Positions 11,517-47,745 of a stretch of 64,000 bases of DNA are shown here, one piece after another. The stretch is from Flavobacterium sp. MC2016-06. GTDB lineage: Bacteria > Bacteroidota > Bacteroidia > Flavobacteriales > Flavobacteriaceae. Under the pieces are notes generated by a model. The model was not told where the DNA came from. It saw only the letters and a program-made list of their open reading frames with translations, and ran no database searches. A program made the translations under genes and the position numbers. Within the stretch, counting starts at the first letter, position 1; each line of letters opens with the position of its first letter. The stretch covers positions 108,727-172,726 of the forward strand of contig NZ_WMID02000009.1 in the NCBI RefSeq assembly GCF_009711165.2. The letters are read 5' to 3'.

Positions 11517-11542
11517 AAAAATATATTTGTTAAATAGCCTAA

Positions 11543-11550: not shown

Positions 11551-11622
11551 ACAGAATAAATATTGTTAAAATTAAGGTTTCCCGTAAAAGCGTAAAAAAA
11601 TTGAAAGCCAAAGTGAAAACTT

Positions 11623-12060: not shown

Positions 12061-14663
12061 TTTTTATAGGGATTGAAAACCAAAAATAAACCAATTAGCG
12101 TCAATAAACTAATGATGTAGACGATATAATTTGAAGAATTTTCAGACTCAGAAATAGTTCCATAATACACAAAAGCACTCCAATAATAAGGTGATTTTTT
12201 AGCATTTGGAATATTCGGATCGTTTAGGAAATCTCTTTTAGCGTTAGCATTTGCTTCAAAATAAGGCTGTTTGTTTTTGATGTTTTTGTAGAAATCATCC
12301 ATAAAAACAGAAGTCGTATAATCATTTACTTTCCATAAAGAAAAAAGTAAATTCTGTGCGCCGGCAAACTGAAAACCTCTTGCAACGCTCATTGCACCTT
12401 CTGCTTTATACATTTTTCCAATTCCAGTTTCGCAGGCACTTAAAACCACTAAATCGGGATTTATATTAAGATTGTACAACTCCGAATATAATATTTCCTG
12501 ATCGTAGAATTTAATACTTGCAGGAGTTTCTAAATCGCCAGAAGAAGCGTGCGTGCTCAAATGTAGAATAGAATAATGAGAAGCATTCTTTTTGAAAGCA
12601 GCAAAACCAGCATCTGAATTTTCTAAATATTTTCCTTTAAAATTATTTCGAATGGATTCTAATTCTTTCTTCGAATAACTTAATTCAAAAGCGGTTTTCT
12701 CGAAAACTGGGAAAATCCCTAAAACAGTCTTTTCTGATTTTGAGATTGGTTTTGAATTTAGATAAATGTTTGCAGAAGTATTATATGCGATTTTGAAATC
12801 ATTCAATAAATAATGCATTTTTGCAAAATTGGTTGTGTTTGATTTGTTAGTAATTAAAGCTTCAAACGGCAGGAAATTTAAAATTCCGTCAGGAACAATA
12901 ACGAGATTTTGATAAAGATAATTGGTTGGTAAATTTAATAAATCATAAGCTGCTTTTCCAGCACTGTTGTAACCCGAAATGTCATTTGTAATCGAATTTG
13001 CATCGTTGAAGTAATCTATGAATCGCACAATTGTATACATTTTCCCATCACCTATAGGAACTCGATTTAGAAAAATTCGATTATTTTCTAAAATGAAATA
13101 ATACAATTTTTCAGCACCCATAAAATAATAAACCATAATCGCTTTATCATTTTTTAATTTTGAAAACAATGCTTTCAAATCGCAGTCTTCGGGAATATAA
13201 TCTGCCTTTTTAGATTGTGTTTCTTTCAGCGAAAGCATCAATTCACTTTGTTTCTTTATGAGTTGATTTATTTCTGAAATATTAGCTAAATCGCCCTTTT
13301 GCTGTTCTTTTAAAATGGAGTTATTTAAATTTTGGAGTTGAAATAATAACTGTTTTTCTTCTATTGAAGCATTTTTGATATTAGAACGATAACTTTTTAA
13401 AATTCCAGATTTTGTTCTTTCAGACAATTGAAAGGCTTTTTTTAAATAGTCAGCTTTGTTTTCCTTCTGGTATAAATCATTATAAATAGAAATACACTTT
13501 TCTGTTCGATTTCTTGCTCGCAGTTGTGCAATGATTTTTGAGTTTTCGTAAATCAAAGAATTCATTACTAAATCTTCAATATAAAAAGAAAGTTCAAATG
13601 CTTGTAATGCTTTTTTGGGTTGCTTAAATTGCAAGATTTCTGCCTGCAAATCGAGCGCATCAATTAAAACCGTTTCAGCATATAGCTGGTTCTGATTTGG
13701 GAGCGTATTTTTTGTATTATAATTAGGAATTAGAGTTCTAAAAACAATAGAAATTTGCTTTGTACTTTCATCGTATTTACTTTCATCAAAAAGCAATAAC
13801 GCTTTCTCGTAATACAATTTTGCAAGTTTTCTAGGCTGTTGATTTTTTGTTTCTAAAAACAGTTTTTCAGCTTTGTCTAAATAAAAATGCGCTATTTCGA
13901 AGTTTCTTCTTTGGCGGTTAAAAGAGGCGAGACTTCTATAAGAATTGGATAAAGTCTCCGATTGTTCTTTTTCATTTTTCAAATATTTTATGGAAGATTC
14001 AAATGCATTTTCAGCTTTTCTGCTTATTTCGGGAATTAATAGATTTCCACCTGAACTTAGTAAATAATTATTTCCTAGATTATTCAACAAAACGCCTTTT
14101 TGAGAATTTGATAATTTCTCTGTTTTCAAAGTATTTTCTAATAATTCAATTGCTAGAGAAGTTTTTCCAGAACTCTGATAAACATTAGACAAATTCAGAA
14201 TTGCGGCCACTTTCTGCGATTCATTTTTCTGTAGATTGGCAATAAAGTAATATTGTTTTATGGTGTTTTCAGCATTATCACAATCGCCCAAAATAGTATA
14301 TAAATTCCCCAAAGGTTTCAGACAATATTCAATTATATCGTAATTCTTAAGTTTGTTTATCTGATAAAGCTGCCAAGCCTTCTCGTAGCTTTTTATAGCA
14401 TTTCCAGATTGCCCAAATTGATTTTCGTAATAGGCTTTATTGCAGTTTAAAACCACAATTGCCAGAAGTTCAGCTGTAGATTTTGATTTAGAACTTTTCC
14501 AGAAATCAGCTTCAGTATTCGTTAAATTTTGTAACGCTTCCGCGGAAGGAGCAGCGACGAAACTATCAACAGCATTATATATTTTATCCTCTTGAGAAAC
14601 AGATTGCTGTCCGAATAAAATCAGAGTTGAAAAGAACAATATAAAGCAGTACAATTTTGTCAT
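12012..14663 (-). CDS. Exported TPR-CHAT (caspase-like) protein with C-terminal membrane anchor
   Basis: Protein of 883 residues. It opens with a signal peptide (MTKLYCFILFFSTLILFGQQ), followed by tetratricopeptide-type helical repeats to about residue 480 and a coiled-coil stretch. A CHAT (caspase HetF-associated with TPRs) domain fills residues about 550-840. The catalytic His lies in ILHLSTHASSGD and the Cys in VVLSACETGIG, both intact. Near the C-terminus one membrane segment (YIVYIISLLTLIGLFLVF) is followed by a Lys-rich tail. The predicted arrangement is a periplasmic TPR-CHAT body anchored in the inner membrane. It is flanked by a PKD/barrel gene upstream and overlaps the retropepsin gene downstream. 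CHAT proteins are cysteine proteases in several bacterial systems; the partner here is not known. Confidence 0.9.
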   Translation of the reverse strand: MTKLYCFILFFSTLILFGQQSVSQEDKIYNAVDSFVAAPSAEALQNLTNTEADFWKSSKSKSTAELLAIVVLNCNKAYYENQFGQSGNAIKSYEKAWQLYQINKLKNYDIIEYCLKPLGNLYTILGDCDNAENTIKQYYFIANLQKNESQKVAAILNLSNVYQSSGKTSLAIELLENTLKTEKLSNSQKGVLLNNLGNNYLLSSGGNLLIPEISRKAENAFESSIKYLKNEKEQSETLSNSYRSLASFNRQRRNFEIAHFYLDKAEKLFLETKNQQPRKLAKLYYEKALLLFDESKYDESTKQISIVFRTLIPNYNTKNTLPNQNQLYAETVLIDALDLQAEILQFKQPKKALQAFELSFYIEDLVMNSLIYENSKIIAQLRARNRTEKCISIYNDLYQKENKADYLKKAFQLSERTKSGILKSYRSNIKNASIEEKQLLFQLQNLNNSILKEQQKGDLANISEINQLIKKQSELMLSLKETQSKKADYIPEDCDLKALFSKLKNDKAIMVYYFMGAEKLYYFILENNRIFLNRVPIGDGKMYTIVRFIDYFNDANSITNDISGYNSAGKAAYDLLNLPTNYLYQNLVIVPDGILNFLPFEALITNKSNTTNFAKMHYLLNDFKIAYNTSANIYLNSKPISKSEKTVLGIFPVFEKTAFELSYSKKELESIRNNFKGKYLENSDAGFAAFKKNASHYSILHLSTHASSGDLETPASIKFYDQEILYSELYNLNINPDLVVLSACETGIGKMYKAEGAMSVARGFQFAGAQNLLFSLWKVNDYTTSVFMDDFYKNIKNKQPYFEANANAKRDFLNDPNIPNAKKSPYYWSAFVYYGTISESENSSNYIVYIISLLTLIGLFLVFNPYKKWKIFKNFSKKKNTKK

Positions 14664-14681
14664 TTAAAAGAGGTGATTTTT

Positions 14682-14771
14682 TTTGCCACGAATTTCACGA
14701 ATTTCCACAAATTTTTTGAGCCACTATTTTAAACTTTTTAATTCGTGAAAATTCGTGAAATTCGTGGCAAA
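14682..14771. repeat. Palindromic intergenic element, CACGAATT family
   Basis: Perfect 23-bp inverted arms (14682-14704 and 14749-14771, beginning TTTGCCACGAATTTC) enclose a 44-bp centre between the CHAT gene and the upstream PKD gene. Half-elements of the same family recur at 63791-64000. The next 50 bp (ctttcttcgtgtatctctgc...) is the kind of low-information filler typical of such elements in Flavobacterium. It separates two genes otherwise expected in one operon. Confidence 0.75.
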
Positions 14772-14823
14772 CTTTCTTCGTGTATCTCTGCGAAAACTTT
14801 GTGCATCTCTGTGTAATATACTA

Positions 14824-16776
14824 TTAAAACTTCCAGATTCCATAAAACTGAAAATAATTAAAATTCTGCTCAAAGTTAATGACGTACCTCGCGCCCAAAC
14901 TCGGGCCAATTCTTACCGCTCCAATAGTCAAGTCTAATAACAATCCAGTTTTTAAATTAGTAAACGAATTTTTTACAGCATTTGAATTGTTTACCGTTTC
15001 CAACACAATTTTATCCGAATCGCCTTCAAAAGTTTCAATTTTGATACTTTGATTTTCTTCTTGCGAAACATTGAAATTAGCCTGCAAACCCGCGCCAACG
15101 CCAATATAATTATTAATGTTGTAGCGAATAAGAACAGGAATTTCCCAATTCACGCTTTTATTTTCAGTGCTTGTAGTCGTTCGCTGTCTTTGTTTTACAC
15201 CATTTGCATTAGTAATAACGGCATCAACTACACTTTCGGCACTGTCGTATTTATTGATGCTGTTGAGCCATTCTGCCTGCCAATAAAAACGATAGGATTT
15301 AAAAGGAGAAATTGTCGCTCCAACAAAATAACTCGTCGAATTGTCTAAATCAGGATATAAATTGTAACCTGCTTTTGCACCAATCGATATTCCTGGAGAA
15401 AATCGGGTAGTGGCATAGTTGGTAATGATAGGTTCGTTTTTATCAAAAATAATGGCTGTTCTGCTTTTGGTTTTTACTTTATGAAAGTCTTTGTTAAACT
15501 TCATCGAATATTTTACAAAACCCTTTGTACTGTCTTTTTCCTGTACATTTTTCTGCTCACTTCCAGGCAGATAAATATTTTTGAAAGTAAAAAAGATTTG
15601 TTTTTGTTTAATAATCGTATCGAGGCAGCTTGTGGTTGGTTCTTCGCCTTTTGGACAAATTGGACATTCTGGATACATGCTTTCGATCTGAAATGTTTTC
15701 TTGTCAAACATGTCTGGAATATCCGTTTCCAGTCGAATCATTCTTGCTGGACCTTCGCCGTTGTTTTGAAAGCGGGTTTTAAAATTCACTCTTTTAAAAC
15801 GCACCAATCTATAACTCATAAAACTCCCATTAGAACCCATTTTATTTGGATCGTGAGACGTTACAATTTCCATTTCGAGGTTTTTTACTTTGTGGTTTTT
15901 AAAACTTCTATTTGGCACAAAAATCCCGCGCATGGTAACCGTAGCGCTGGTATCTTTAATCATTTCTGGAGTAGTTTTAAACGTATAAAAAATATTCCGA
16001 GTTTCACTTGGGTTTGCATCATCAAATTCTAAAACAGAAACATTATGATACGTTTTATGCGCATCGGCCAATGAAGCGTCGAGATCTTCTTCCGTCGTTG
16101 TGTTTCTGTATTTTTTGATTTTAAAAGTGTTTTCGGCAGAAGCCAAATACGACTTTGTATCATCAAGATCCTCAACCGAAGCGATAGTATTTTCTTTTAC
16201 CTCGCGTTCGTTAGCATAAGTTCTAAAATCGACTAATTCAAAATTATTGCTTTTAAACTGTTTCTCATTATAAAATAAATACAGTTTGCCGCTGGCAACA
16301 TAATTTTCTAAATTTTGATAACTCACAACAACTACCATTTCTTGTTCTGGAATTGGGTCACAGTTTTTTAAAATCGCAAAACCGTTTTGATCTGCTATTG
16401 ATGCGATGTCTTTGTAATTAGTATCGGTAATATCATTTACTGCAACTTTTTTAGGACGCGTTGCCGGAGGTTTTCCGTTGTCGTAATTGTTAGTTACGGC
16501 AAGTCTTGCGGTATAAGTTCCTTTGTTTTTATACACATGTTTTGGCTGTGCTTCTTTGCTGTAATGTCCGTCGCCAAGTTCCCATAAATAAGAATAACTT
16601 GGTTTTGGCGCACCAGCAATCGGAATTAAAGGCGGTGTTTCGGGTTTAAAAGTAACCTGATTTCCGTTTTGATTGTAAATGATATTGGCTCTTCGGGTGA
16701 TGGTGTCTTTTGCTTTGGTCTGCGAAAACGCCATTGTCGATAAAAGAAAAATTAAATAATAAAAATGTCTTTTCAT
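14824..16776 (-). CDS. PKD-domain protein with C-terminal outer-membrane beta-barrel
   Basis: Protein of 650 residues with a signal peptide (MKRHFYYLIFLLSTMAFSQ). A PKD domain follows at about residues 35-110 (YLWELGDGHYSKEAQPKHVY is the diagnostic stretch). The middle region has a Cys cluster (YPECPICPKGEEPTTSC) and is not recognised. The last 200 residues alternate hydrophobic and polar residues, with GAKAGYNLYPD, YFVGATISPF and a terminal Phe, as in small outer-membrane barrels. The protein probably sits in the outer membrane with its PKD part exposed. It is the first of the group PKD-barrel, TPR-CHAT, retropepsin, SprB-repeat, all on this strand. A plus-strand 183-codon frame inside it is treated as antisense noise. 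Confidence 0.8.
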   Translation of the reverse strand: MKRHFYYLIFLLSTMAFSQTKAKDTITRRANIIYNQNGNQVTFKPETPPLIPIAGAPKPSYSYLWELGDGHYSKEAQPKHVYKNKGTYTARLAVTNNYDNGKPPATRPKKVAVNDITDTNYKDIASIADQNGFAILKNCDPIPEQEMVVVVSYQNLENYVASGKLYLFYNEKQFKSNNFELVDFRTYANEREVKENTIASVEDLDDTKSYLASAENTFKIKKYRNTTTEEDLDASLADAHKTYHNVSVLEFDDANPSETRNIFYTFKTTPEMIKDTSATVTMRGIFVPNRSFKNHKVKNLEMEIVTSHDPNKMGSNGSFMSYRLVRFKRVNFKTRFQNNGEGPARMIRLETDIPDMFDKKTFQIESMYPECPICPKGEEPTTSCLDTIIKQKQIFFTFKNIYLPGSEQKNVQEKDSTKGFVKYSMKFNKDFHKVKTKSRTAIIFDKNEPIITNYATTRFSPGISIGAKAGYNLYPDLDNSTSYFVGATISPFKSYRFYWQAEWLNSINKYDSAESVVDAVITNANGVKQRQRTTTSTENKSVNWEIPVLIRYNINNYIGVGAGLQANFNVSQEENQSIKIETFEGDSDKIVLETVNNSNAVKNSFTNLKTGLLLDLTIGAVRIGPSLGARYVINFEQNFNYFQFYGIWKF

Positions 16777-16807
16777 ATCGAGGAGGTTTTTTTAGCCCTG
16801 ATGGGAG

Positions 16808-16852
16808 CGGCATCCTTTTTCTGGCTTCTTTAGACAGAAAAAGATACAGCGG
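16808..16852. repeat. Imperfect hairpin element upstream of the PKD/barrel gene
   Basis: The stem TCTTTTTCTG/CAGAAAAAGA forms within a GC-richer block (about 16797-16872, gccctgatgggagcggcatcc ... agcggacagcaggatt) that contrasts with the AT-rich surroundings. I recognise similar blocks downstream of many Flavobacterium genes, but only one copy is in this window. It lies between the PKD gene start and the lipoprotein terminator. Confidence 0.45.
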
Positions 16853-16909
16853 ACAGCAGGATTAGCTTCTGAAAATTATCAGAACTGATTGTAAAACAGA
16901 TTAAATGTA

Positions 16910-35257: not shown

Positions 35258-37021
35258 ATGAGGCTGATCATCTCTTTTTTATTTTTACTGGTGTTAAATA
35301 CTTCTGTTGCTCAGCAAAAAAAGGAGCTTACGGAACAAGAGTATGTAGCATTACAGAATAAAATTCGATTTAGCATAAATAATGATTTTAACCTAGGTCT
35401 AAAATATGTAGGCGAAATGCTACAATCGACCAATGATAAACACCTGGCTTTTGCAAATGGTGCGGCTTCCTATTTATATCAATTAAAGAATGATATTCCA
35501 AAATCAGATCAGAAATATGCATTGGCACTTTCATATTTAAAAAAAATACCTGAATCTGGTGAAAAAACAAAAGTACACTCTTATCTGTATAATTATAGAG
35601 GTTTAACAGAATGGCAGAGAGGTAATTTTAGCAAGGCTTTAGAAAGTTATCAAGAAGGGATAAAATTGTCTACTAAAATAGGAGATGTTATTCAGATTGT
35701 AAAGTTTAAAAGTAATATTGCTTTGCTTAATGAAGTAATTGGAAACTACCAGCTGTCAATTAAAATTCTGAGACAAAATGCTAATTTTCTAGATGAAAAT
35801 GAAAACATCTATGATAAGGAACAATTTGAGAATAGTAAAAGTAATATGTATACCAATTTAGGGAATTCATATGAAGGTTACTATATGAAAAACCAAACGA
35901 AAACATACCTATTAGATTCGGCGGAATTCTTTTATAAAAAAGCAATCACTTATTCAGAAAAATACATAATCAATAAAATGACATCTAAACTAAGTTTGGG
36001 TAATGTTTACTTGATGAAAAAAGACACCAAGAGTGCCGAAAAAGTATATTATGATGTTATTTATTATTCGATACAAAATAATAATAAAGGATATTTTTTG
36101 ACTGCAAATTATAACTTGGGAGATTTATATTATTCGATGAAAAAATATGATAAAGCTCTTATTTTCTTAAAGAGGGTCGATTCTATTTCTTTGAAAAATA
36201 AAACATTAGACAATAGCTTTTTCAAATCAAATTATATTCAGGCAAAAATTTATAATTTGAAGGATGAACCTGAATTGGCTTATAAACATTCTAAAATTTA
36301 TCTAGACGAGTACGAAAAATATGAAAATAAGTTAAGAGACGAAGCCGTTGAAATAAATTACAAGTTAGGTGTAGAGAATTTAGGAGACGAAATGCTTGCA
36401 ATTCAGGAGAAATATAAATATGAAGTTTTCTGGAACAAAGCCTTAAAAGTATTTTATGTTTTACTAGTCATTGGAATCGTGTTTTTATTGGTAAAAAACA
36501 TACGAGATAAAAATAAAGCACACAAAAAAATGAATGCTCTTATAGAGGAATTTAAAGCTAATCTTGAGAAAAAAGAGCAGGCACCTGCACCACAAATAAT
36601 TGCAGAAATAGAAGTTGAGGCTCCTGAACTGGAAGATGTAACTTTTAAGAAAGAAAATGCTAATTTGACTATTGACGAAGCCAAAGAAAATAAAATTGTT
36701 GAGAAACTGCTGGCTTTAGAAGAAAAATTAGAATATTTAAATGCCGATTTTACGTTGTCTTATGTTGCCAAAAAGGTAAAAACAAATACAACTTATTTAT
36801 CTTACATCGTAAACAAACGATTTGGTAAATCTTTTGGAGAATATTCTAATGAACTTAAAATTAATTATGTAATTAATCAAATGATTACCAATCATTTGTA
36901 TAGAAAATATTCAACACAGGCTATTGCAGAAAGTGTAGGTTTTAAAAATGCGGTATCATTTGCAAAATCATTTCGCAAAAGAACTGGAGTGTCTCCAGCT
37001 CAGTTTGCGAATAATATTTAA
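35258..37021 (+). CDS. TPR-transmembrane-AraC-type regulator
   Basis: 587 residues. A signal-type N-terminus (MRLIISFLFLLVLNTSVAQ) is followed by tetratricopeptide repeats from about residue 60 to 380 (for example TANYNLGDLYYSMKKYDKALI). A membrane segment lies at about 395-412 (FYVLLVIGIVFLLV), then a coiled, Glu-rich linker and a C-terminal AraC-type HTH (SYVAKKVKTNTTYLSYIVNK; YSTQAIAESVGFKNAVSFAK). This TPR-membrane-AraC layout is common in Bacteroidota. It ends 45 bp from the convergent precursor peptide genes and may regulate the peptide locus; that is inferred from position only. Confidence 0.88.
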   Translation: MRLIISFLFLLVLNTSVAQQKKELTEQEYVALQNKIRFSINNDFNLGLKYVGEMLQSTNDKHLAFANGAASYLYQLKNDIPKSDQKYALALSYLKKIPESGEKTKVHSYLYNYRGLTEWQRGNFSKALESYQEGIKLSTKIGDVIQIVKFKSNIALLNEVIGNYQLSIKILRQNANFLDENENIYDKEQFENSKSNMYTNLGNSYEGYYMKNQTKTYLLDSAEFFYKKAITYSEKYIINKMTSKLSLGNVYLMKKDTKSAEKVYYDVIYYSIQNNNKGYFLTANYNLGDLYYSMKKYDKALIFLKRVDSISLKNKTLDNSFFKSNYIQAKIYNLKDEPELAYKHSKIYLDEYEKYENKLRDEAVEINYKLGVENLGDEMLAIQEKYKYEVFWNKALKVFYVLLVIGIVFLLVKNIRDKNKAHKKMNALIEEFKANLEKKEQAPAPQIIAEIEVEAPELEDVTFKKENANLTIDEAKENKIVEKLLALEEKLEYLNADFTLSYVAKKVKTNTTYLSYIVNKRFGKSFGEYSNELKINYVINQMITNHLYRKYSTQAIAESVGFKNAVSFAKSFRKRTGVSPAQFANNI

Positions 37022-37066
37022 TAGTATGAGTTATAATAATAATGGTTATTTATTATATAGAAAATT

Positions 37067-37207
37067 TTAGCCGTTTCCAGTTCCTGTTTTTTTCCCTGGA
37101 TCATTTGTTGGATCAGTTCCATCATCACCACCTCGAACTGTTTTTTGTTGTTTTTTAGATAGTTCTTGATTTTTAAAATCTTCGAATTTTAGGGTTGTGC
37201 TTTTCAT
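37067..37207 (-). CDS. GG-leader precursor peptide A1
   Basis: 46 residues, below normal gene-finding size, read directly. The leader MKSTTLKFEDFKNQELSK, then KQQKTVRGG, ends in a Gly-Gly processing site. The predicted core is DDGTDPTNDPGKKTGTGNG with no Cys. It differs from A2 by only a few leader residues (STT/NTV and Q/E) and has an identical core. It belongs to the Bacteroidota GG-leader (natural product precursor) group. No modification enzyme is in the window. Confidence 0.75.
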   Translation of the reverse strand: MKSTTLKFEDFKNQELSKKQQKTVRGGDDGTDPTNDPGKKTGTGNG

Positions 37208-37259
37208 ATCTTAAGTTTTTAAAGTTGTTGTTTATATTTTATTATGTTGAATTAAAATT

Positions 37260-37400
37260 TTAGCCGTTTCCAGTTCCTGTTTTTTTCCCTGGATCATTTG
37301 TTGGATCAGTTCCATCATCACCGCCTCGAACTGTTTTTTGTTGTTTTTTAGATAGCTCTTCGTTTTTGAAATCTTCGAATTTTAGGACTGTATTTTTCAT
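37260..37400 (-). CDS. GG-leader precursor peptide A2
   Basis: 46 residues starting MKNTVLKFEDFKNEELSK, with the same Gly-Gly site and the same core (DDGTDPTNDPGKKTGTGNG) as A1. Nucleotide identity with A1 is very high and the copies are tandem, so this is a recent duplication. Confidence 0.75.
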   Translation of the reverse strand: MKNTVLKFEDFKNEELSKKQQKTVRGGDDGTDPTNDPGKKTGTGNG

Positions 37401-37404
37401 ATTG

Positions 37405-37590
37405 TTAATTTTTTAAAGATGTTGCTGTTCTTAAATATTGAATTAAATCGAAACCATTACCTGTTCCAGTTTTTTTACCTGGATCGTTTGGATCGGTGTT
37501 ATCCCCATCTCCTCCTCGAACTGTTTTTTGTTGGTCTTTAGATAATTCTTTGCTTTCAAAATCTTTAAATGTTAATTCCTTTTTCTTCAT
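37405..37590 (-). CDS. GG-leader precursor peptide A3 (longer core)
   Basis: 61 residues from the ATG at 37590 (MKKKELTFKDFESKELSKDQ). The frame continues upstream to 37683, but the family start is clearly at 37590. The leader ends TVRGG. The core is GDNTDPNDPGKKTGTGNGF plus DLIQYLRTATSLKN, so it shares the middle with A1 and A2 and adds a helical-looking C-terminal extension. Tandem with A2 (4 bp apart). Confidence 0.75.
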   Translation of the reverse strand: MKKKELTFKDFESKELSKDQQKTVRGGDGDNTDPNDPGKKTGTGNGFDLIQYLRTATSLKN

Positions 37591-37998
37591 GTTCTGTGTA
37601 TTAGGGTTAGTCTTGATAAAAGATAAATTATGCGCAATTTTTGTATCCTTTGACTCTATTTTTTGGGGAGATTTAGAGATCAATTTTTACTTTCTTTTTG
37701 TTGATTTTTGGATCATTTTCAGATCTTAAAATCGTTAGGATTAAAGTCTCTTTTTTTAATGATTGTTCATATTGAGGCTTTTACTATGTCAAAACTAGAT
37801 AAAAAGAGAAACCATTGATCGGAAATGCCTTTTTGAAGAGTTTGTAGAAAGGATTTGCTAATTAAATATCTGTTAGTCAGATGTTTGAATGCTTATCTAT
37901 GGCTGGTATAATTTATAAATTGTATGTGGTATAATTGATAAAAAGTGTGCCATTGCATGTTTTTTTTCAATAAAAACACCAATATTTGCATCATAATT
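37591..37998. other. 408-bp non-coding spacer between divergent peptide-locus arms
   Basis: AT-rich spacer between precursor A3 (minus) and the C39-like/VKOR gene (plus). It should carry the promoters of both arms. No TAnnTTTG box with good -33 spacing can be assigned. A short inverted repeat, ATCTGTTAGTCAGAT, lies near 37868. Otherwise I see nothing. Confidence 0.5.
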
Positions 37999-39564
37999 AT
38001 GTCAATAAAGATGTTAAAACTAGTCCAAAAATTTCTTCAAATAAATAGATACTCGGAGATCAAAAATGAGTTTAAAGATTTGTTTCTTTCTCATCCAAAT
38101 TATCCAAGCTTATTTGCTATTACAGATTCATTTGATTTGCTTTCAATAGACAATGCTGCGGTAAGAGTTTCGAAAGAACAAATAGTAGATCTGCCTTCAA
38201 ATTTTCTAGCCTATTTTAAAGAAGAACTTATATTGGTAGAAAAGGCAAAAAGTTTTGTTCGTATTAATACAGTTAAAAAAGCAAATCAGAAAATGTCTTA
38301 CGAGAATTTTCTTTTAGACTGGAATGGAGTAATTGTAGCAATAGAACCTAATAATGTAGTAGCAAGAGAAAATTTAAAAGTTGAGTTTAACTGGCTTAAA
38401 TATTTTTTACCTCTTTTGCTTTTAGTCGGGTTGTCATTTTTTTATAACACATATAGTTTATTTAGTCTTGTTTTTTTGATTACATCAATTATAGGACTTG
38501 TGGTAAGCTTTTTTATAGTGCAGGAAAAATTAGGAGTTAAAAACAGTATCATAAACAAATTCTGTAATCTAAGTACTAATTCCTCTTGCAACTCAGTAAT
38601 CAATTTTGATGAAAATGACAATAAATGGGTTAATTTTTCAGATTTACCATTATTGTTTTTCAGCTCAAGTATTATTGCATTATTAGTACAGCCTTTTACA
38701 TCGGCTATATTTATAGGGTTCTTAAGTTTATTGTCAATTCCAATTATTGTTTCATCAATCTGGATTCAAAAGTTTGAGATTCAAAAATGGTGTGTAATGT
38801 GTCTAGTAGTTTCATTTTTGATTTTTGCACAAAGCGTTATCTGGTTTTCATCAGATTTATTTACACTAGATTTTGAATTCAATACTGTTTTTCCTTTTCT
38901 GTTTTCTTTCATTCTGTTTATACCAATTTGGACTGTAATCAAAACAATGTTAAAAAATGTTTTAGAGAGCGAGAATAGTTTAAAAGAGCTTAAAAAGTTT
39001 AAAAGAAATTACTCATTGCTGAATTTCTTGTCAAAAAAAGTAATTCATACAAATGGATTTGAAGACTTAAGAGGTTTGGCATTTGGAAACAAAAGCGCCG
39101 TAATTAAGCTTTCTGTAATTATAAGTCCAAGTTGCGGGCATTGTTATAAAACATTTCAAGAAGCATTTGATTTGGTTCTGAAATATCCAGACAGAATATA
39201 TTTAAATGTTTTATTTAATATAAATCCTGAGAATAATGATAATCCTTATAAAGTTGTGGTCGAGAGATTATTAACAATAAACAGATCTTCACCAGGAAAA
39301 ACAGTTGAAGCAATTTCAGATTGGTATATTAAAAAAATGGGTCTCAAAAAATGGTTAAAAAAATGGCATGTAGATGCTGTGAGTATGATGATAAACCAAG
39401 AGATACAGAAACAATATGAGTGGTGTTCTAAAAATAATTTTAATTACACGCCAGTTAAAATTGTAAACGAAAGGTTATTTCCAAGTGAATATGAACTTAA
39501 CGAGCTGAAATATTTCCTAAATGATTTTATGGAAGATGTTGAAGTTTTAGAAAAAACAGCATAA
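37999..39564 (+). CDS. C39-like / VKOR / DsbA-like thiol-oxidase fusion
   Basis: 521 residues from the ATG at 37999 (MSIKMLKLVQ); GTG at 37945 and ATG at 38011 are alternatives. Residues 1-125 resemble a C39 peptidase-like domain (FLSHPNYPSLFAITDSFDLL) but have no catalytic Cys. About five membrane segments with VKOR features follow: the loop FCNLSTNSSCNSV (near 188) and active-site WCVMC (near 264). A thioredoxin/DsbA-like domain has SPSCGHCYKTF near 376. This is the known VKOR oxidase fusion type of Bacteroidota, making disulfides outside the cytoplasm. It precedes the Cys-containing precursors by 39 bp, so those are plausible substrates. Confidence 0.88.
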   Translation: MSIKMLKLVQKFLQINRYSEIKNEFKDLFLSHPNYPSLFAITDSFDLLSIDNAAVRVSKEQIVDLPSNFLAYFKEELILVEKAKSFVRINTVKKANQKMSYENFLLDWNGVIVAIEPNNVVARENLKVEFNWLKYFLPLLLLVGLSFFYNTYSLFSLVFLITSIIGLVVSFFIVQEKLGVKNSIINKFCNLSTNSSCNSVINFDENDNKWVNFSDLPLLFFSSSIIALLVQPFTSAIFIGFLSLLSIPIIVSSIWIQKFEIQKWCVMCLVVSFLIFAQSVIWFSSDLFTLDFEFNTVFPFLFSFILFIPIWTVIKTMLKNVLESENSLKELKKFKRNYSLLNFLSKKVIHTNGFEDLRGLAFGNKSAVIKLSVIISPSCGHCYKTFQEAFDLVLKYPDRIYLNVLFNINPENNDNPYKVVVERLLTINRSSPGKTVEAISDWYIKKMGLKKWLKKWHVDAVSMMINQEIQKQYEWCSKNNFNYTPVKIVNERLFPSEYELNELKYFLNDFMEDVEVLEKTA

Positions 39565-39603
39565 AGAAGAGTAAATAGAGTTCCCAACTTAAATCCTGTA
39601 ATC

Positions 39604-39786
39604 ATGTTAAAAAATATTTTAAAATTAAGAGGAGCAGTTGAATTAACTGCAAGTGAGCAAAAAACAATTAGTGGTGTTAATGGCTCAATTTGTGAAGATG
39701 GATTTAAAGCTAAAAAATGTACAGAGTTTGGAACTGTGCCAGCTTATTGGAGTTGCGTACCAAATAATTATGTAAGCGGCTGCTAA
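39604..39786 (+). CDS. Cys-containing precursor peptide B1
   Basis: 60 residues. The leader MLKNILKLRGAVELTASEQK, then TISG, resembles that of B3 (LKKILNLENAQSISKNEQK) but the processing site is Gly-Val (SGV) instead of Gly-Gly. The core has four Cys (in SICED, KKCTE, WSCVP, SGC), enough for two disulfides. It follows the VKOR fusion gene by 39 bp. Confidence 0.7.
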   Translation: MLKNILKLRGAVELTASEQKTISGVNGSICEDGFKAKKCTEFGTVPAYWSCVPNNYVSGC

Positions 39787-39834
39787 AAAAAGATGATCTA
39801 TTGAAGAATTGTTAAAATATAAAAGTGGAATAAT

Positions 39835-39969
39835 ATGTTAGAAAAATTCTTAAAAAATCAAGATACTAAAGAGATTACAAAAGCAGAACAAAAAAATATT
39901 AATGAAGGAGATTCTCCATCAGATTTTAATTGTTATAATGCTACTGCAGATAAATTTTATGCTTGCTAA
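39835..39969 (+). CDS. Cys-containing precursor peptide B2
   Basis: 44 residues, too short for ordinary gene calling, read directly. The leader MLEKFLKNQDTKEITKAEQK aligns with B1 and B3; the site is Glu-Gly (NEGD), weaker than Gly-Gly. The core SPSDFNCYNATADKFYAC has two Cys. It is followed by a terminator-type hairpin. Confidence 0.6.
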   Translation: MLEKFLKNQDTKEITKAEQKNINEGDSPSDFNCYNATADKFYAC

Positions 39970-39983
39970 TTTGAATAATTAAG

Positions 39984-40019
39984 ATAATAACAGAGAGATC
40001 AATTTTCTCTGTTATTATT
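39984..40019 (+). terminator. Hairpin after precursor B2
   Basis: ATAATAACAGAGA pairs with TCTCTGTTATTAT. A closely similar AACAGAG...CTCTGTT hairpin recurs at 40464-40498, suggesting duplicated peptide-plus-hairpin cassettes. Confidence 0.7.
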
Positions 40020-40034
40020 AAAATGGTATCATTT

Positions 40035-40226
40035 ATGTTAAAGAAGATCTTGAATCTAGAAAATGCTCAAAGCATTAGCAAAAATGAGCAGAAAACAATT
40101 AGGGGAGGAATTCCTGAATGTTGGATTTACGCTATTGAAGCGGGATGTGTTTTGATACCAATTGGCGGAATTTGCCCCATAAATACTTCATCAGGTATTT
40201 GTGATTCGAGCCGTCTTTGTTGTTGA
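40035..40226 (+). CDS. Cys-rich GG-leader precursor peptide B3
   Basis: 63 residues from the ATG at 40035 (MLKKILNLENAQSISKNEQK); the ATG at 40023 gives a four-residue longer start. The leader ends KTIRGG, a canonical double-Gly site for C39-type processing. The core starts IPECWIYAIEAGC and has six Cys including a terminal CC. Up to three disulfides are possible. It is the best-formed substrate candidate for the ABC exporter downstream. Confidence 0.75.
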   Translation: MLKKILNLENAQSISKNEQKTIRGGIPECWIYAIEAGCVLIPIGGICPINTSSGICDSSRLCC

Positions 40227-40263
40227 TTTTTATAACTTTTTTTTAAAAAGTAGTACGATATAG

Positions 40264-40443
40264 CCTTATTTAGAATTTAGTCATGTTTTTTTTGAATGTA
40301 TAGGCGCTCGATCGTGGAACATTGAGCAAATTCCCCGCATTGATGATTGGTGCTGGGATTCTAAGGAGTTTGGGTGCTGTGTTAATTTTATTTGGTTAGG
40401 GTTAACCAGTGCCATGTCCTTCAGAAATTGTGTTACTATTTAA
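40264..40443 (+). pseudogene. Possible decayed precursor peptide (B4)
   Basis: An open stretch without a start codon (FECIGARSWNIEQIPR, then IDDWCWDSKEFGCCVNF, ending SFRNCVTI). A DNA alignment by eye with the B3 leader shows shared blocks (TTGAAT-TA, GCTC, CATT-GCAAA) across small shifts. The stretch has five Cys, including GCC, and a hairpin like that after B2. Interpretation as a frameshifted paralogue is tentative. It lies in the 322-bp gap before the ABC gene, where nothing else is seen. Confidence 0.35.
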
Positions 40444-40463
40444 TTACAGTTTTTTAAATACTG

Positions 40464-40498
40464 AACAGAGGAGATATTATGTCTTCTCTGTTTTTTTA
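40464..40498 (+). terminator. Hairpin after the decayed precursor
   Basis: AACAGAG ... CTCTGTT followed by seven T, 50 bp ahead of the ABC exporter gene. It may limit read-through from the precursor cassettes into the transport genes. Confidence 0.65.
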
Positions 40499-40548
40499 TT
40501 ATAACAAGAAAATTTATTCTTAAATTGCTCTTGAATAAATTAAATAAA

Positions 40549-42741
40549 TTGAAAAAATTCACGCATTATAAGCAGGCAGATCATAAAGATTGCGGTCCGA
40601 CATGTTTAAAAATAATAGCTAAGCATTACGGTAAAACAATCCATATTCAGGAGTTGAGAGATTATAGCGAAACAACTCGTGAAGGAAGTAATCTGCTTTT
40701 TTTAAGTGATGCTGCCGAAAAAATCGGCTTTAGAACTTTAGGAGTAAAACTATCCGTAAAAAGGCTAGAAGAAGCGCCTCTTCCATGTATTCTGCACTGG
40801 AATAAATATCATTATGTTGTATTATATAAAATCAAAAAAAATGTGTTTTATATTTCTGATCCTGCTTTTGGATTGATTGAATACAATAAAGAAGATTTTA
40901 CTAAATTTTGGATAGGAAATAATGCCGATGAATCTACCGAGGAAGGAATTGCATTATTGATTGAAGCGACACCAAAATTTTTTCAATCCGATTTTGATAA
41001 AGAAGATAACAAAGGATTAGGATTTAGACTGCTGGCACAATATGTACTGCGATATAAATCTTTTTTGGCACAATTAGGAATTGGATTGCTTGCGAGCAGT
41101 TTACTACAGTTGATTTTCCCATTTTTGACTCAAAGTATTGTTGATGTCGGAATACAAAATCAAAATATCCATTTTATTTATTTAATTCTTTTTGCACAGT
41201 TATTTCTATTTGCAGGAAGAATAGGTTTAGAACTCATTAGAAGCTGGATACTGCTGCATCTTTCCACTCGGATTAATATTTCATTAATTTCAGATTTTTT
41301 CATTAAATTAATGAATCTGCCCATTTCATTTTTTGATGTTCGAATGACAGGCGATATTATGCAGCGCATTAACGATCATCGAAGGATAGAAAAAATACTT
41401 ACCACATCGTCTTTAAATGTTCTGTTCTCTGTCATAAACATGTTTGTGATGGGAGCTGTTCTTGCCTATTTTAATTTCCAGATCTTTTTTGTGTTTTTTG
41501 CAGGAAGCATTCTTTATTTTGGATGGATTACATTATTCTTAAAACGAAGAGAAGTTTTAGATTACAAGCGTTTTGCCGAGGTTTCTCAAGAACAAAGCAA
41601 AGTGATGGAACTTATAAACGGCATGCAGGAAATCAAGCTTCATAATGCCGAAAAACAAAAACGCTGGGGCTGGGAATATGTACAAGCAAGACTTTTTAGA
41701 GTTTCTATAAAAGGTTTGGTATTAGAGCAGACTCAAACCATTGGTTCATCGGTTATAAACGAATTAAAAAATATTTTTATCATATTTCTCTCGGCAAAAT
41801 TAGTAATTGACGGTTCTATAACCTTAGGGATGATGCTGGCAATCAGTTCTATCGTTGGAACTTTAAACGGCCCAATTACACAGCTTATTGAGTTTGTGCG
41901 AGAATTACAAGATGCTAAAATATCTTTAGCCAGGTTATCTGAAATACACGAAAAAGAAGATGAAACACAGCAGGAGGCTCATCAAACTAGTGAAGTTCCA
42001 TATAATTCAGATATAGAGATCAAAAATCTTTCTTACCGTTATTTAGGATCTGATGTTCCGGTTTTAGACAATCTGAGTTTAATAATTCCGGCCAATAAAG
42101 TAACGGCGATAGTAGGCGTAAGCGGAAGCGGAAAAACAACACTGATGAAACTGCTTCTTAAGTTTTATGATCCCGAAAAAGGAGAAGTAATAATTGAAAA
42201 TACGAATCTAAAAAACATTTCGCAAAAAGCCTGGCGGGCTAACATTGGAGCTGTGATGCAGGAAGGATTTATTTTTAGTGATACCATTGCAAACAATATT
42301 GGTTTTGGCGCAGACAGAATAGACAAGGAACGTTTGGTGTATGCAGCAGATGTGGCCAATATAAAAGATTATATAAGTGAACTGCCTTTGGGCTATAATA
42401 CAAAAATTGGTGCCGAAGGAACAGGAATGAGTACAGGACAAAAGCAGCGTCTGCTAATTGCAAGAGCAGTCTACAAAAATCCGGAAATATTGTTTTTTGA
42501 TGAAGCAACTTCTGCCTTAGATGCCAATAATGAGAAAGAAATTATGCGAAAGCTCGATATTTTCTTTAAAGATAAAACCGTTGTCGTTATTGCCCATAGA
42601 TTGAGTACTGTTATGAATGCAGACCAGATTGTGGTTTTAGATAAAGGAAGAATCATCGAAATAGGAAACCACTCGGCACTTGTAGAGCAGAAAGGGAATT
42701 ATTTTGAACTGGTTAAGAATCAATTACAATTAGGAAATTAA
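40549..42741 (+). CDS. C39-peptidase ABC transporter (PCAT) for GG-leader peptides
   Basis: 730 residues from the TTG at 40549 (read LKKFTHYKQADHKDCG); there is no ATG and TTG at 40525 or 40531 are alternatives. The N-terminal C39 peptidase has the catalytic Cys in DHKDCGPTCLKI (near 15) and His in KYHYVVLYK, followed by SDPAFG carrying the Asp. Six TM segments then precede the NBD: Walker A VSGSGKTTLM, signature MSTGQKQR, Walker B ILFFDEATSALD. Such proteins cut the leader after Gly-Gly and export the peptide. The adaptor gene begins 3 bp later. Confidence 0.93.
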   Translation: MKKFTHYKQADHKDCGPTCLKIIAKHYGKTIHIQELRDYSETTREGSNLLFLSDAAEKIGFRTLGVKLSVKRLEEAPLPCILHWNKYHYVVLYKIKKNVFYISDPAFGLIEYNKEDFTKFWIGNNADESTEEGIALLIEATPKFFQSDFDKEDNKGLGFRLLAQYVLRYKSFLAQLGIGLLASSLLQLIFPFLTQSIVDVGIQNQNIHFIYLILFAQLFLFAGRIGLELIRSWILLHLSTRINISLISDFFIKLMNLPISFFDVRMTGDIMQRINDHRRIEKILTTSSLNVLFSVINMFVMGAVLAYFNFQIFFVFFAGSILYFGWITLFLKRREVLDYKRFAEVSQEQSKVMELINGMQEIKLHNAEKQKRWGWEYVQARLFRVSIKGLVLEQTQTIGSSVINELKNIFIIFLSAKLVIDGSITLGMMLAISSIVGTLNGPITQLIEFVRELQDAKISLARLSEIHEKEDETQQEAHQTSEVPYNSDIEIKNLSYRYLGSDVPVLDNLSLIIPANKVTAIVGVSGSGKTTLMKLLLKFYDPEKGEVIIENTNLKNISQKAWRANIGAVMQEGFIFSDTIANNIGFGADRIDKERLVYAADVANIKDYISELPLGYNTKIGAEGTGMSTGQKQRLLIARAVYKNPEILFFDEATSALDANNEKEIMRKLDIFFKDKTVVVIAHRLSTVMNADQIVVLDKGRIIEIGNHSALVEQKGNYFELVKNQLQLGN

Positions 42742-42744
42742 ATC

Positions 42745-44034
42745 ATGACTGAAGAATCATTTGAATTAAGAAGTGAAGAAGTACAGGACATTCTTACAAA
42801 AGTACCGCATTGGATGATACGCTGGGGAACTGTTTTGATATTTGTCATTATCCTGATGCTGTTTTTTGTGTCTTGGTTTATAAAGTATCCAGACGTTGTA
42901 AATACTGAAATTGTAATTACAACCAACATTCCGCCAGAGAAAATAGTTTCTAAATCATCGGGACGTATTGAAGCCATTTTGGTGCATAATAAATCTGTTG
43001 TGGCCAAAAACAGCACACTTGCCATTATTGAAAATACGGCCAACTATAAAGATGTTTTTTTATTGAAAAGTATTGTTGATAATTATGATATTAATGATCC
43101 TAAAAAAACATTTCCCTTTGAAAAACTTAAAAACAAACAATTAGGCGAAATAGAAAGTGCCTTTGCTGTTTTTCAAAAAGATTATCAGGCACAGGAATTA
43201 AATGAAGACCTGCATCCTTTTGAAATCGAAAATAGAGCACAGTTATCTGAAAAAGTCCAGATTAAGGAAAGATTGGATATTCTGCAGCAGCAAAAAACGA
43301 TCAATGAAAGCGAATTACAGCTTCAGAAAAACGAAATTGCCCGTTTTGAAACCTTATTCAACAAAGGTATTATTTCGGCACAGGAAATGGAAGCTAAAAA
43401 ACTGAGTTATCTTCAAGCACAAAAGAGCTATAAAAGCCTTTTAACGTCGATTTCTCAATTAAGGTCCTCTTTGATTGATAACGCAAAATCGAGCCAGAAT
43501 TCTCATGTAAACAGCACTAAAGAAGAAGTTAACCTCGGCCGCAATATGGCGCAGTCATTTTATCAGCTCAAAAAAGTGATAAAAGACTGGGAATTAGCCT
43601 ATACTTTAAAATCATCGGTAAGCGGTGTAGTTACTTTTCTGCAGGTTTGGACAGAAAATCAAACCATAAATGTCGGAGATAATGTTTTCTCTATTATTCC
43701 AAATGCAAAAAATAGTTTTGTAGGCAAAGTAAAAGCACCAGCACTAAATTCTGGGAAAATAAAAGTTGGACAGCGGGTAAATATCAGATTGGCAAATTTT
43801 CCCGATAGAGAATTCGGAGTTTTGAATGGGAAAATTCAAAACATTTCATTAGTTCCAGATAAAGATGGAAATTTACTTCTTGATGTTGCTCTGCCAAATG
43901 GACTGCAGACTTCTTATAAAAAGCAGATTGTTTTTCAGCAGGAAATGAAAGGAAGTGCAGAAATTGTAACCGAAGATCTTCGATTAATAGAAAGGATTCT
44001 ATATCAATTTAAAAATGTTTTCGAACAGGTTTGA
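42745..44034 (+). CDS. HlyD family secretion adaptor
   Basis: 429 residues. One membrane segment near the N-terminus (about 32-52: LIFVIILMLFFVSWFI) is followed by a split lipoyl domain (SSGRIEAILVHNKSVVAKNS; SSVSGVVTFLQVW) around a long coiled coil (residues about 150-260). The C-terminal beta-barrel is RVNIRLANFPDREFGVL. It joins the PCAT exporter to the outer membrane. Spacing of 3 bp from the ABC gene implies translational coupling. No TolC gene is in the locus. Confidence 0.9.
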   Translation: MTEESFELRSEEVQDILTKVPHWMIRWGTVLIFVIILMLFFVSWFIKYPDVVNTEIVITTNIPPEKIVSKSSGRIEAILVHNKSVVAKNSTLAIIENTANYKDVFLLKSIVDNYDINDPKKTFPFEKLKNKQLGEIESAFAVFQKDYQAQELNEDLHPFEIENRAQLSEKVQIKERLDILQQQKTINESELQLQKNEIARFETLFNKGIISAQEMEAKKLSYLQAQKSYKSLLTSISQLRSSLIDNAKSSQNSHVNSTKEEVNLGRNMAQSFYQLKKVIKDWELAYTLKSSVSGVVTFLQVWTENQTINVGDNVFSIIPNAKNSFVGKVKAPALNSGKIKVGQRVNIRLANFPDREFGVLNGKIQNISLVPDKDGNLLLDVALPNGLQTSYKKQIVFQQEMKGSAEIVTEDLRLIERILYQFKNVFEQV

Positions 44035-44060
44035 TGTCTAACCGATTGATATAAAGCACA

Positions 44061-45296
44061 ATGCAGAAACTCTTTGTTTTTATTTTATTATTTATTAGTG
44101 GGATAATTTCTTCTCAAGTAAAATCAGCTGAATTTTTTACAATTAAAGGAGATGTCAGAGATTTAAAATCAGGTATTGCAATTGCAAACGCTGATATATA
44201 TCTTTTGAATTCTAACAAAAGTGTCATCGCAAATAGTGATGGTGTCTTTCAATTTGTCATTCCTAGAAGTAGTTTTAATGACAGAATGATTATTGCAGCA
44301 ATAGGCCATTCTTCAGATACAATTTCAGTTTCGGAGCTTGAAAAAAACGAAAAGAATCAGATTTTTATTAAGCTAAAACCTCAAGAAGAAGCAGATGTAA
44401 ACTTAGATGAAACGACTGTTTTTTCTTCAAAAAGAAAAATAAAGGCATTAACAGCACAAGCGATTTTACGTAAAGCAAAAGATCAAATTAAGGATAATTA
44501 TTATCAGAAGCCTTTTAACCAAAAAATCTTTTTTCGAGCTCAAACGAGTAAAGATAAAGTTTTTACTATAAATGAAGAGGCTCTAATTAATACTTACAGT
44601 CCAAATGGTATTAAGGTGTCAGAGGATGCTGCTGAAAATTTTTTTGGCGAGATTTTGCAATTTAGAACCAAGGATGTTTTAGAATCAGAAGAAAATTGGA
44701 AAGGAATTGGTTATTTAGGAGTTGTTATTTTTAGAAACATAATGTTGAGCAATCAAAATGTGTTATACGAAACAAAACCTTATGAGCTTAAAAAAGAAGG
44801 AATAACGATGTATAATGGTAAAAAAGTTTATGTAATTAGTTTTACTAATTTAGAGCCTGATTTGTTTTCTACTGGTTTTGGAAACCCAGCGCCTAGTTCT
44901 GCAACAGGATTTATTTACATCGAGAAAGATTCTTTTGCAGTAGTTAAGTTTGAGCAATATATAATTTTAAAACCAGAAAGATCAAATGATAATGATGATA
45001 TCAAAATTGATTCTACATTGAAAATTACACAAACCTATAAGAATATAGGCGGAAAATATTTTATTAATTATTGTAATGAAAAAGTAGAAAGTAATTATTT
45101 TTCAATAGGAGATAAAACATTAATGTATACCATAAATTCAAATTATGATTTGATGTCTGAAGATATAAATTTAGAAAACGTATCGATTATTAAAAGAAAA
45201 ATAGATAAACTTAAATTAGGCGTAAAACCAACTCAAAATCCGGAGTATTGGAATAATTCTAATAGTATTGTAAATAATAAAAAGTTTGAATTTTAG
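44061..45296 (+). CDS. CarboxypepD_reg-like domain protein of the peptide locus
   Basis: 411 residues with a signal peptide (MQKLFVFILLFISGIISSQV). The first 90 residues form a carboxypeptidase-regulatory-like beta domain (FTIKGDVRDLKSGIAIANAD, IYLLNSNKSVIANSDG). The rest resembles DUF5686-type outer-membrane-associated proteins without the long barrel. It follows the adaptor gene by 26 bp on the same strand. Proteins of this type are often found beside Bacteroidota peptide exporters; role unknown. Confidence 0.75.
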   Translation: MQKLFVFILLFISGIISSQVKSAEFFTIKGDVRDLKSGIAIANADIYLLNSNKSVIANSDGVFQFVIPRSSFNDRMIIAAIGHSSDTISVSELEKNEKNQIFIKLKPQEEADVNLDETTVFSSKRKIKALTAQAILRKAKDQIKDNYYQKPFNQKIFFRAQTSKDKVFTINEEALINTYSPNGIKVSEDAAENFFGEILQFRTKDVLESEENWKGIGYLGVVIFRNIMLSNQNVLYETKPYELKKEGITMYNGKKVYVISFTNLEPDLFSTGFGNPAPSSATGFIYIEKDSFAVVKFEQYIILKPERSNDNDDIKIDSTLKITQTYKNIGGKYFINYCNEKVESNYFSIGDKTLMYTINSNYDLMSEDINLENVSIIKRKIDKLKLGVKPTQNPEYWNNSNSIVNNKKFEF

Positions 45297-47696: not shown

Positions 47697-47745
47697 AATC
47701 GTGTGATTAAATTTTGAGGTACTCGACCTCTATTAATTAAGGGCG

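Follow-up and report, generated by a model that had tools for sequence, protein, structure and literature searches.

Peptide quorum sensing is best known in Gram-positive bacteria. In the Com- and Blp-type loci of streptococci, the pheromone and the bacteriocins have double-glycine (GG) leaders and one PCAT exporter in common, the pheromone induces the locus, and the receptor is a histidine kinase acting with a response regulator. The receptors of RRNPP quorum sensing (Rap, NprR and PlcR) are intracellular and belong to Firmicutes and their mobile elements (PMC10075063). Within Bacteroidota, the class IIf bacteroidetocins have a double-glycine leader and at least two cysteines, and their peptide gene is adjoined by genes for a peptidase-ABC exporter and a thiol oxidoreductase (PMC6671954). 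Two precursor-containing RiPP clusters of Bacteroidales hold TPR genes, for which pheromone binding was raised as a possibility (PMC10352776). Among the literature matches listed, there was no described peptide pheromone–receptor pair of Bacteroidota.

Here we analyze a locus in a 64,000-nt window of Flavobacterium sp. MC2016-06 (contig NZ_WMID02000009.1; all coordinates are positions within this window). It consists of the regulator gene tprAraC, three Cys-less precursors (A) read from the other strand, a fusion of C39-like, VKOR and DsbA-like parts, three precursors with cysteines (B), a structured RNA, a PCAT and a HlyD-family adaptor. We propose, with a probability of about 60%, a bacteriocin-type locus that induces itself under peptide control, in which A is the pheromone sensed by tprAraC and B is a disulfide bacteriocin.

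The B half of the locus matches the bacteroidetocin features named above, including the two or more cysteines, though the leaders are about 25 aa long here versus 15 aa there (PMC6671954). This likeness is one of gene content and of the double-glycine leader. The bacteroidetocin account, as far as its available text goes, describes a TM-protein gene but makes no mention of A-type peptides or of TPR-AraC genes (PMC6671954), and the oxidoreductase here is the C39-like/VKOR/DsbA fusion. Unlike in Com/Blp-type loci, the host is Gram-negative and the candidate receptor a membrane-bound, one-component TPR-AraC protein, and no histidine kinase/response regulator pair was found among the ten locus proteins scanned. 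A TPR protein gene adjoining a small propeptide gene is shared with RRNPP systems, but in place of a soluble intracellular receptor hydropathy predicts a signal/anchor helix and a TM helix at about residue 395, and the locus combines a predicted periplasmic TPR domain with GG leaders and a PCAT (PMC10075063). For the Bacteroidales RiPP clusters, the available part of the source reports no AraC fusion, pairing test or dedicated peptide (PMC10352776).

Gene content and conservation of the export locus

The PCAT gene (40549–42741, + strand) encodes 730 aa from a TTG start, with a C39 domain (Peptidase_C39, 119.6 bits), ABC_membrane and ABC_tran domains, and matches over its full length to ComA (8hf4) and to 4ry2, which is named an ABC-type bacteriocin transporter. 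Cys15, His88 and Asp104 are located in the C39 domain and are presumably the catalytic residues. The HlyD-family adaptor gene (42745–44034, +) starts 3 bp behind. An earlier, sequence-only reading of this DNA had claimed this exporter and adaptor, a VKOR/thioredoxin-like fusion and six small ORFs (three tandem and Cys-less, three with cysteines), all of which we find. The locus it outlined is real and conserved but larger than it had supposed: it made no use of tprAraC (35258–37021, +), the predicted membrane regulator central to the locus, and missed the conserved structured RNA between B3 and PCAT. Comparing neighborhoods, as that reading had suggested, we found A ORFs on the opposite strand and VKOR in 76/76 named loci whose sequence extends 3 kb or more downstream of tprAraC, far above chance. 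The accessory gene behind the adaptor (44061–45296, +), for a carboxypeptidase-regulatory-like protein with sub-threshold Pfam matches, is not a conserved member, being matched in just one of 29 other fetched loci (L052, partially).

The start of the fusion gene (38011–39564, +) was set at 38011, with an alternative in-frame ATG at 37999. Its product is identified as a VKOR/DsbA-like oxidase by a VKOR match of 42.1 bits, cysteine pairs 185/193, 261/264 and 375/378, which together supply a VKOR CxxC, a loop Cys pair and a thioredoxin CxxC, and its folds, with Pfam Thioredoxin_4 below cut-off at 15.2 bits. The N-terminus aligns collinearly but weakly with the C39 domain of PCAT in a profile–profile comparison (E 0.02, probability 2%); the C39-like assignment is better supported by the Pfam C39 domain found in 40 of 56 homologs. 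No C39 structure was listed when the VKOR model was used for fold searches, and since the C39-like part has low pLDDT, this missing match is uninformative. Residues 1–130 contain no Cys, and a C39-like domain lacking the catalytic Cys may hold precursor leaders, while the VKOR-DsbA part would oxidize the B cores.

The three B precursors differ at the leader end. B1 (39604–39786, +; four Cys in the core) has Gly-Val and B2 (39835–39969, +; two Cys) has Glu-Gly in place of GG, whereas B3 (40023–40226, +; six Cys) has the canonical GG, such that the double-glycine leaders previously ascribed to the whole class hold in this strain for B3 alone. Among the orthologues matched by motif in 80 named loci, GG is kept in 7/23 for B1 versus 51/54 for B3. 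Disulfide formation in the B cores is plausible, and B3 co-varies with VKOR. Compared by eye, the A leaders have L(−12), Q(−7), V/I(−4) and the GG spacing in common with those of B, and for that reason export of both classes via the locus PCAT, as earlier suggested, is plausible.

The A peptides and the adjoining regulator

Precursors A1 (37067–37207, − strand; leader end VRGG) and A2 (37260–37400, −) have the core DDGTDPTNDPGKKTGTGNG, and A3 (37405–37590, −), whose ATG lies within a longer TTG ORF, has a C-terminally extended core. The single core formerly given for all three therefore applies to A1 and A2, while the end of A3 differs. In all three, GG stands at −2/−1 with the hydrophobic spacing of such leaders, and the A family is present in all 76 named loci with room for it. 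The leaders resemble the NCBIfam profile TIGR04149 for rSAM-modified RiPPs: A2 scores 25.0 bits at a cut-off of 25, or 23.0 bits with the start Met removed, A1 scores 22.3 and A3 20.2, and the profile picks up 19 of 32 A members at E ≤ 1. NCBI names some A homologs ‘rSAM-modified’. In contrast to what such a family calls for, a cognate radical SAM/SPASM maturase, SPASM (PF13186) gave no match at E ≤ 0.01 in the MC2016-06 genome, which is 99.97% complete, while 8 of 14 control genomes were positive. SPASM radical-SAM modification of A is thus rejected for this genome, where the name is unsupported, and the earlier remark that no radical SAM enzyme is visible now extends, for the SPASM type, to the whole genome. 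The locus calls this automatic annotation into question. Weak matches to the A profile occur in six other genera.

The tprAraC protein comprises a signal/anchor helix, a TPR superhelix (∼25–392), a TM helix (∼395–413) and an AraC-type HTH (∼471–587), with Pfam TPR matches, HTH_18 at 49.2 bits against a cut-off of 33.6, and hydropathy peaks at residues 1 and 395. Its AF2 model has a mean pLDDT of 76.5, rising to about 90 in the TPR part, which is similar to various TPR proteins, pheromone receptors of the Rap/NprR kind included; Rap/NprR proteins make up 15 of the 50 structural matches listed. We propose that tprAraC senses a peptide in the periplasm and acts as a one-component regulator. Flavobacterium genomes may contain many TPR-AraC-like candidates: a first look gave 67 in the MC2016-06 genome, of which eight were scored. 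In the search outside the genus, with four candidates scored per genome, MC2016-06 itself was the one genome with tprAraC among 299 of the family.

An A-type peptide is encoded convergently with tprAraC at all 38 places where tprAraC occurs in 150 Flavobacterium genomes and at 76/76 named loci with enough sequence. A is absent from 17/17 VKOR loci without tprAraC and is kept beside two tprAraC genes without VKOR or PCAT in the fetched stretch. (L071 was left out of the 17 because it belongs to the distal part of the G077 locus, L044, with tprAraC and A just outside the stretch; L067 and L087 are loci ending at contig ends.) A thus tracks tprAraC, not the exporter or oxidase, which points to A as the signal for tprAraC. 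The idea of A as a general PCAT cargo is weakened by the 17 absences, and they leave unsupported the sequence-only view in which A is just another class of exported product.

The sequences of the two partners are also linked. Across 76, then 71 loci (one truncated protein was left out), the co-variation of A cores with the TPR domain withstands controls and exceeds both third-position divergence and the leader's share. The cores diverge in step with the TPR domain, and not with B3 or VKOR. The A leaders co-vary with the TPR domain too, more weakly, which lowers our confidence in the pheromone reading.

Between the divergent A and VKOR-B operons lies a candidate tprAraC operator (37907–37946), a direct repeat of two AATTTATAAATT-like half-sites 23 bp apart. 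It adjoins the candidate A-operon promoter TAGTTTTG (37790–37797, −), which fits TAnnTTTG, the Bacteroidetes −7 consensus. Evidence for this promoter comes from the block CAAAACTAGA, where every base is kept by 85% or more of the 25 sequences aligned. A conserved block before VKOR holds CAATATTTG (37980–37988, +), a −7-like element. Half-site 1 is found in 25/25 close loci, with half-site 2 more variable; by scan the pair is present in 75/76 named loci, and half-site 1 in the 76th as well. In the MC2016-06 genome the operator was found once. Several distant sites escaped a stringent matrix and were picked up by a half-site scan or by eye.

Proposed signaling and alternative roles for A

In the proposed mechanism, PCAT would cut the leaders from A and B precursors, and the cores would be exported by PCAT, HlyD and an outer-membrane channel encoded elsewhere. 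Mature A, a Cys-less, acidic, Gly-rich peptide of about 20 aa, would reach the TPR superhelix that membrane-anchored tprAraC would expose in the periplasm, and the AraC domain on the cytoplasmic side would then act at the 23-bp-spaced repeat between the A and VKOR-B-PCAT-HlyD operons. A would thereby induce both its own operon and that of B. With somewhat less assurance, we lean towards regarding this as a new class of cell–cell signaling, in which a PCAT-exported, Cys-less linear peptide is sensed directly by a membrane one-component receptor (a periplasmic Rap/NprR-like TPR domain, one TM helix and AraC), widespread in Flavobacterium and linked both to arrays of disulfide bacteriocins and to a new structured RNA specific to the locus. 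As the candidate pair is adjoining, co-varying, present in dozens of named Flavobacterium strains and accompanied by a likely operator, it is directly testable with synthetic 20-residue peptides. If tprAraC senses a peptide, this would give a concrete lead to the ligands of other TPR-AraC proteins.

Bacteriocin loci often include a regulator, and A could instead be antimicrobial itself, a further class that lacks Cys and is produced and exported together with B, while tprAraC serves just as the local regulator; the sequence-only reading comes close to this. The GG leader and the tandem, locus-specific, fast-changing copies (one to eight per locus) would suit a bacteriocin array; we nevertheless consider this unlikely, since A is missing from all 17 VKOR loci without tprAraC and is kept at two tprAraC genes that have no exporter in the fetched stretch, its cores are acidic and 12% hydrophobic, unlike membrane-active peptides, and core divergence follows the TPR domain.

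It seems quite unlikely, too, that A is another secreted product under tprAraC control, serving adhesion, matrix or as a decoy and not sensed, with the pairing due to co-regulation and the co-variation to co-inheritance of neighbors. The operator beside the A promoter, the leader's own co-variation with TPR, and hydrophilic, Gly-rich cores that need not be signals are all consistent with such a product, yet it would not by itself predict core–TPR co-variation above third-position divergence and the leader's share, nor the retention of A at tprAraC genes without the rest of the locus. That the main role of A transcripts is antisense action on tprAraC, with the peptide a by-product, would suit the convergent placement across the examined loci but is very improbable given the conserved leader and GG, the composition kept across 222 cores, co-variation at the protein level beyond third-position divergence, and a series of complete ORFs that antisense action does not need.

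A structured RNA between B3 and the exporter gene

The locus also adds a new structured RNA element (40262–40438, +), with a fold z of −5.1 (−2.7 on the reverse strand) and compensatory changes at 7 of 34 pairs of a structure derived from the same alignment. One of five covariation measures, further pair types, was not above shuffles (17 vs 18.6). Rfam gave nothing above cut-off on this stretch. We rejected the idea that the interval from B3 to PCAT hides a fourth B gene, as its reading frames lack conservation and the interval holds the structured RNA instead. The element occurs in 25 of 150 genomes, each time at this locus, and in 74/80 named loci. Between it and PCAT, the sequence and MFE fold show a terminator-like hairpin with a T run (40459–40498, +).

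Locus layout and conservation

Our overall reading of the locus is that the A peptides would act as a pheromone sensed by tprAraC, the predicted membrane TPR-TM-AraC regulator, and thereby control an operon for disulfide bacteriocins, the B peptides. The whole locus extends from 35258 to about 44034, beginning with tprAraC (35258–37021, + strand), which is convergent with the three A precursors (37067–37590, − strand). Divergent from A is a + strand operon whose first gene is the C39-like/VKOR/DsbA fusion (VKOR; 38011–39564), with B1, B2 and B3 (39604–40226) in the same operon. These are followed on the + strand by a structured RNA (40262–40438, through 40498 with its terminator-like hairpin), the PCAT exporter (40549–42741) and the HlyD adaptor (42745–44034). 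The VKOR and PCAT start codons were chosen by comparison with relatives: since an upstream VKOR ATG reaches a stop in several of them (L032, L039, L045, L049), the start was placed at 38011, and since the PCAT ORF is 2193 bp in most, in agreement with a TTG start at 40549, that codon was adopted. The sequence-only reading had extended the locus to include a gene at 44061, an assignment we withdraw; this gene has only a partial match in 1 of 29 other loci, and is accessory.

That reading had also proposed comparing neighbourhoods across Flavobacterium genomes. A search with A2 gave matches in 30 of 150 genomes, and the other 29 loci were fetched as stretches of up to 18 kb. The order cons33-ACAD-tprAraC-A(n)-VKOR-B(m) recurs in 27 of these 29, while L058 and L059 are without the locus. 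PCAT falls within the stretch of 26 and HlyD within that of 25, with PCAT lying elsewhere in the fetched stretch of L034. A copies number 1 to 8 per locus and B genes up to 19 (L054), L057 consists of two modules, and three fetched loci have a tandem second tprAraC. In L054 the 19 B-type precursors, mostly Cys-rich, are arrayed between VKOR and PCAT (10648–15113). In L064, L065 and L079, tprAraC and VKOR modules are repeated within one locus, every tprAraC with its own A; L064 has two VKOR and one tprAraC. A named-genome scan with the regulator alignment, from which the best 80 of 216 relatives were taken, gave loci that were all Flavobacterium or labelled just Flavobacteriaceae or [Flexibacter]. 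In the 76 of these 80 with at least 3 kb downstream of the regulator, opposite-strand A (1–7 copies) and VKOR are present in all 76 and PCAT within the stretch in 70.

Two descriptions of the precursors held only in part. Double-glycine leaders had been assigned to the B class, which is correct for B3 (Gly-Gly) but not for B1 (Gly-Val) or B2 (Glu-Gly); among motif-matched orthologues in the 80 named loci, GG is kept in 51 of 54 B3 and 7 of 23 B1. One core had been assigned to all three A precursors, and this is true of A1 and A2, but the C-terminal end of A3 differs.

Association of A with the regulator

Of the 150 genomes, 44 have VKOR relatives (E ≤ 1e-40) and 34 have tprAraC, for which at most 8 candidates per genome were scored; distant tprAraC loci and VKOR loci without tprAraC were fetched in addition. 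All 13 distant tprAraC places (33–48% regulator identity) keep an opposite-strand GG peptide. When an A profile trained on close loci only was scored on 12 distant gaps versus 2,400 random gaps, 11 of the 12 peptides exceeded the random-gap maximum of 9.3 bits, and the L062 peptide, at 6.4 bits, was inside the random-gap range; the peptide at the 13th place, L094, scored 11.8 bits. Because the profile also picks up B leaders (up to 23.8 bits), A was distinguished from B by strand and absence of Cys. With tandem doubles counted once, A is present at 38 of 38 tprAraC places found and at none of 17 VKOR loci whose stretch has no tprAraC, where the GG peptides, if any, have Cys; L071 was left out of the 17 because it covers the distal end of the G077 locus. 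The two tprAraC genes of genome G061 (L076, L094) keep A with no VKOR or PCAT within the fetched stretch. Judged by gene content, A belongs with tprAraC.

At L078 (8866–10780), a still more divergent TPR-AraC gene is adjoined by an opposite-strand leader peptide, and since this peptide has Cys, pairing of the tprAraC type may reach other peptide types. The tprAraC search also gave 67 first-look candidates in the window's own genome, 8 of them scored, and as many as 95 in other genomes of the genus, which suggests that TPR-AraC-like regulators are a large family there.

Between the A and VKOR operons lies TATAATTTATAAATTGTATG, with a second half-site 23 bp further. Of 25 aligned loci, 24 share the first 20 bases of this site exactly and one departs from them at a single base; the second half-site is less constant, L034 being the most deviant. 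The 23-bp pair scored in 75 of the 76 named loci with at least 3 kb downstream, and in the 76th, L187, whose site the fixed scan window did not reach, the first half-site at least is present. For distant tprAraC loci, the scan found the 23-bp arrangement in L057/L079, L061–L064 and L065, a 22–23 bp spacing or variant was seen by eye in L056, L057's first pair, L065's second and L094, and only single half-sites occur in L054, L060 and L076. No such pair lies near VKOR in VKOR loci without tprAraC, except for weak pairs in L066 (6 mismatches) and L072 (5 mismatches) and, in L067, one half-site ahead of VKOR that is perfect. The pair pattern occurs once in the window's own genome, and we infer a candidate operator that tprAraC would bind.

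Co-variation of A with the TPR domain

The 222 A cores of 71 loci have a median length of 20, a mean net charge of −1.95, 12% hydrophobic residues and 24% Gly, with Cys in 5; similarity is 0.68 within a locus versus 0.26 between loci. Co-variation was measured across 35 non-overlapping closest locus pairs, chosen by VKOR or by ACAD. In VKOR-chosen pairs, core divergence follows that of the TPR part (rho 0.75; partial given VKOR 0.66, p 0.0003), and core versus VKOR given TPR is 0.00; ACAD-chosen pairs give rho 0.68, partial 0.52 (p 0.002) and 0.06, respectively. When VKOR third positions were used to choose the pairs, the core–TPR partial is 0.72 given VKOR third positions, 0.53 given HTH third positions and 0.46 given TPR's own third positions (each p ≤ 0.002). 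Choosing pairs by HTH third positions gives core–TPR partials of 0.48–0.60 (p ≤ 0.0025), with a raw core–VKOR correlation (0.80) almost as high as core–TPR (0.85). In the 51 loci with B3 (25 pairs), A tracks TPR (partial 0.65) and B3 tracks VKOR (0.70), not TPR (0.25, p 0.13).

What counts against the simplest reading of the core–TPR link is that the A leader tracks TPR too (rho 0.70; partial given VKOR 0.55), with partials of 0.35 (p 0.02) given TPR third positions and 0.33 (p 0.03) given the core. For that reason, part of the A–TPR co-variation is co-inheritance of neighbouring genes, and linkage is still a confounder; the core–TPR link persists given the leader (0.47, p 0.002). A first, smaller set of 25 loci had the same outcome for core and leader.

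Known and new components

Some A homologues (P0246, P0247, P0249, P0261) are named rSAM-modified peptide at NCBI, apparently after the leader profile TIGR04149; SPASM had no match in the window's own genome. For each of the RRNPP, Com/Blp and rSAM-RiPP families, membership fails on at least one tested feature, and no description of the A–tprAraC pair was found in the open-licence PMC literature among the matches listed. The PCAT, the B half with its likeness to bacteroidetocins, and the concept of TPR peptide receptors are already known; what looks new is the receptor type, the overall arrangement and the RNA. Bacteroidetocins are like B in gene company (PMC6671954), but B leaders are longer.

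The N-terminus of the VKOR fusion looks C39-like, matching PF03412 at E ≤ 0.01 in 40 of 56 homologues, the lowest E being 4.5e-7; the fusion in the window itself scores 17.8 bits, below the cut-off of 22, and its N-terminus is without Cys. This domain may hold the precursor leaders. Both the VKOR part and the DsbA part match solved folds.

Of the 150 genomes, 25 carry the conserved RNA block, which always sits within the locus downstream from a B gene; it is also present in 74 of the 80 named loci, the other six all stopping at a contig end. Its fold beats shuffles (z −5.1; reverse strand −2.7), and 7 of the 34 pairs have compensatory changes (38 cells, against 13 for shuffles), with one of five covariation measures not above shuffles. 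The stretch has no Rfam match above cut-off, and the RNA between B3 and PCAT looks new and is supported by covariation. It may serve in attenuation before PCAT or as a small RNA. Elsewhere in the window, Rfam matches are a Flavo-1 RNA (16790–16867) and an S16-Flavobacteria leader (47706–47737).
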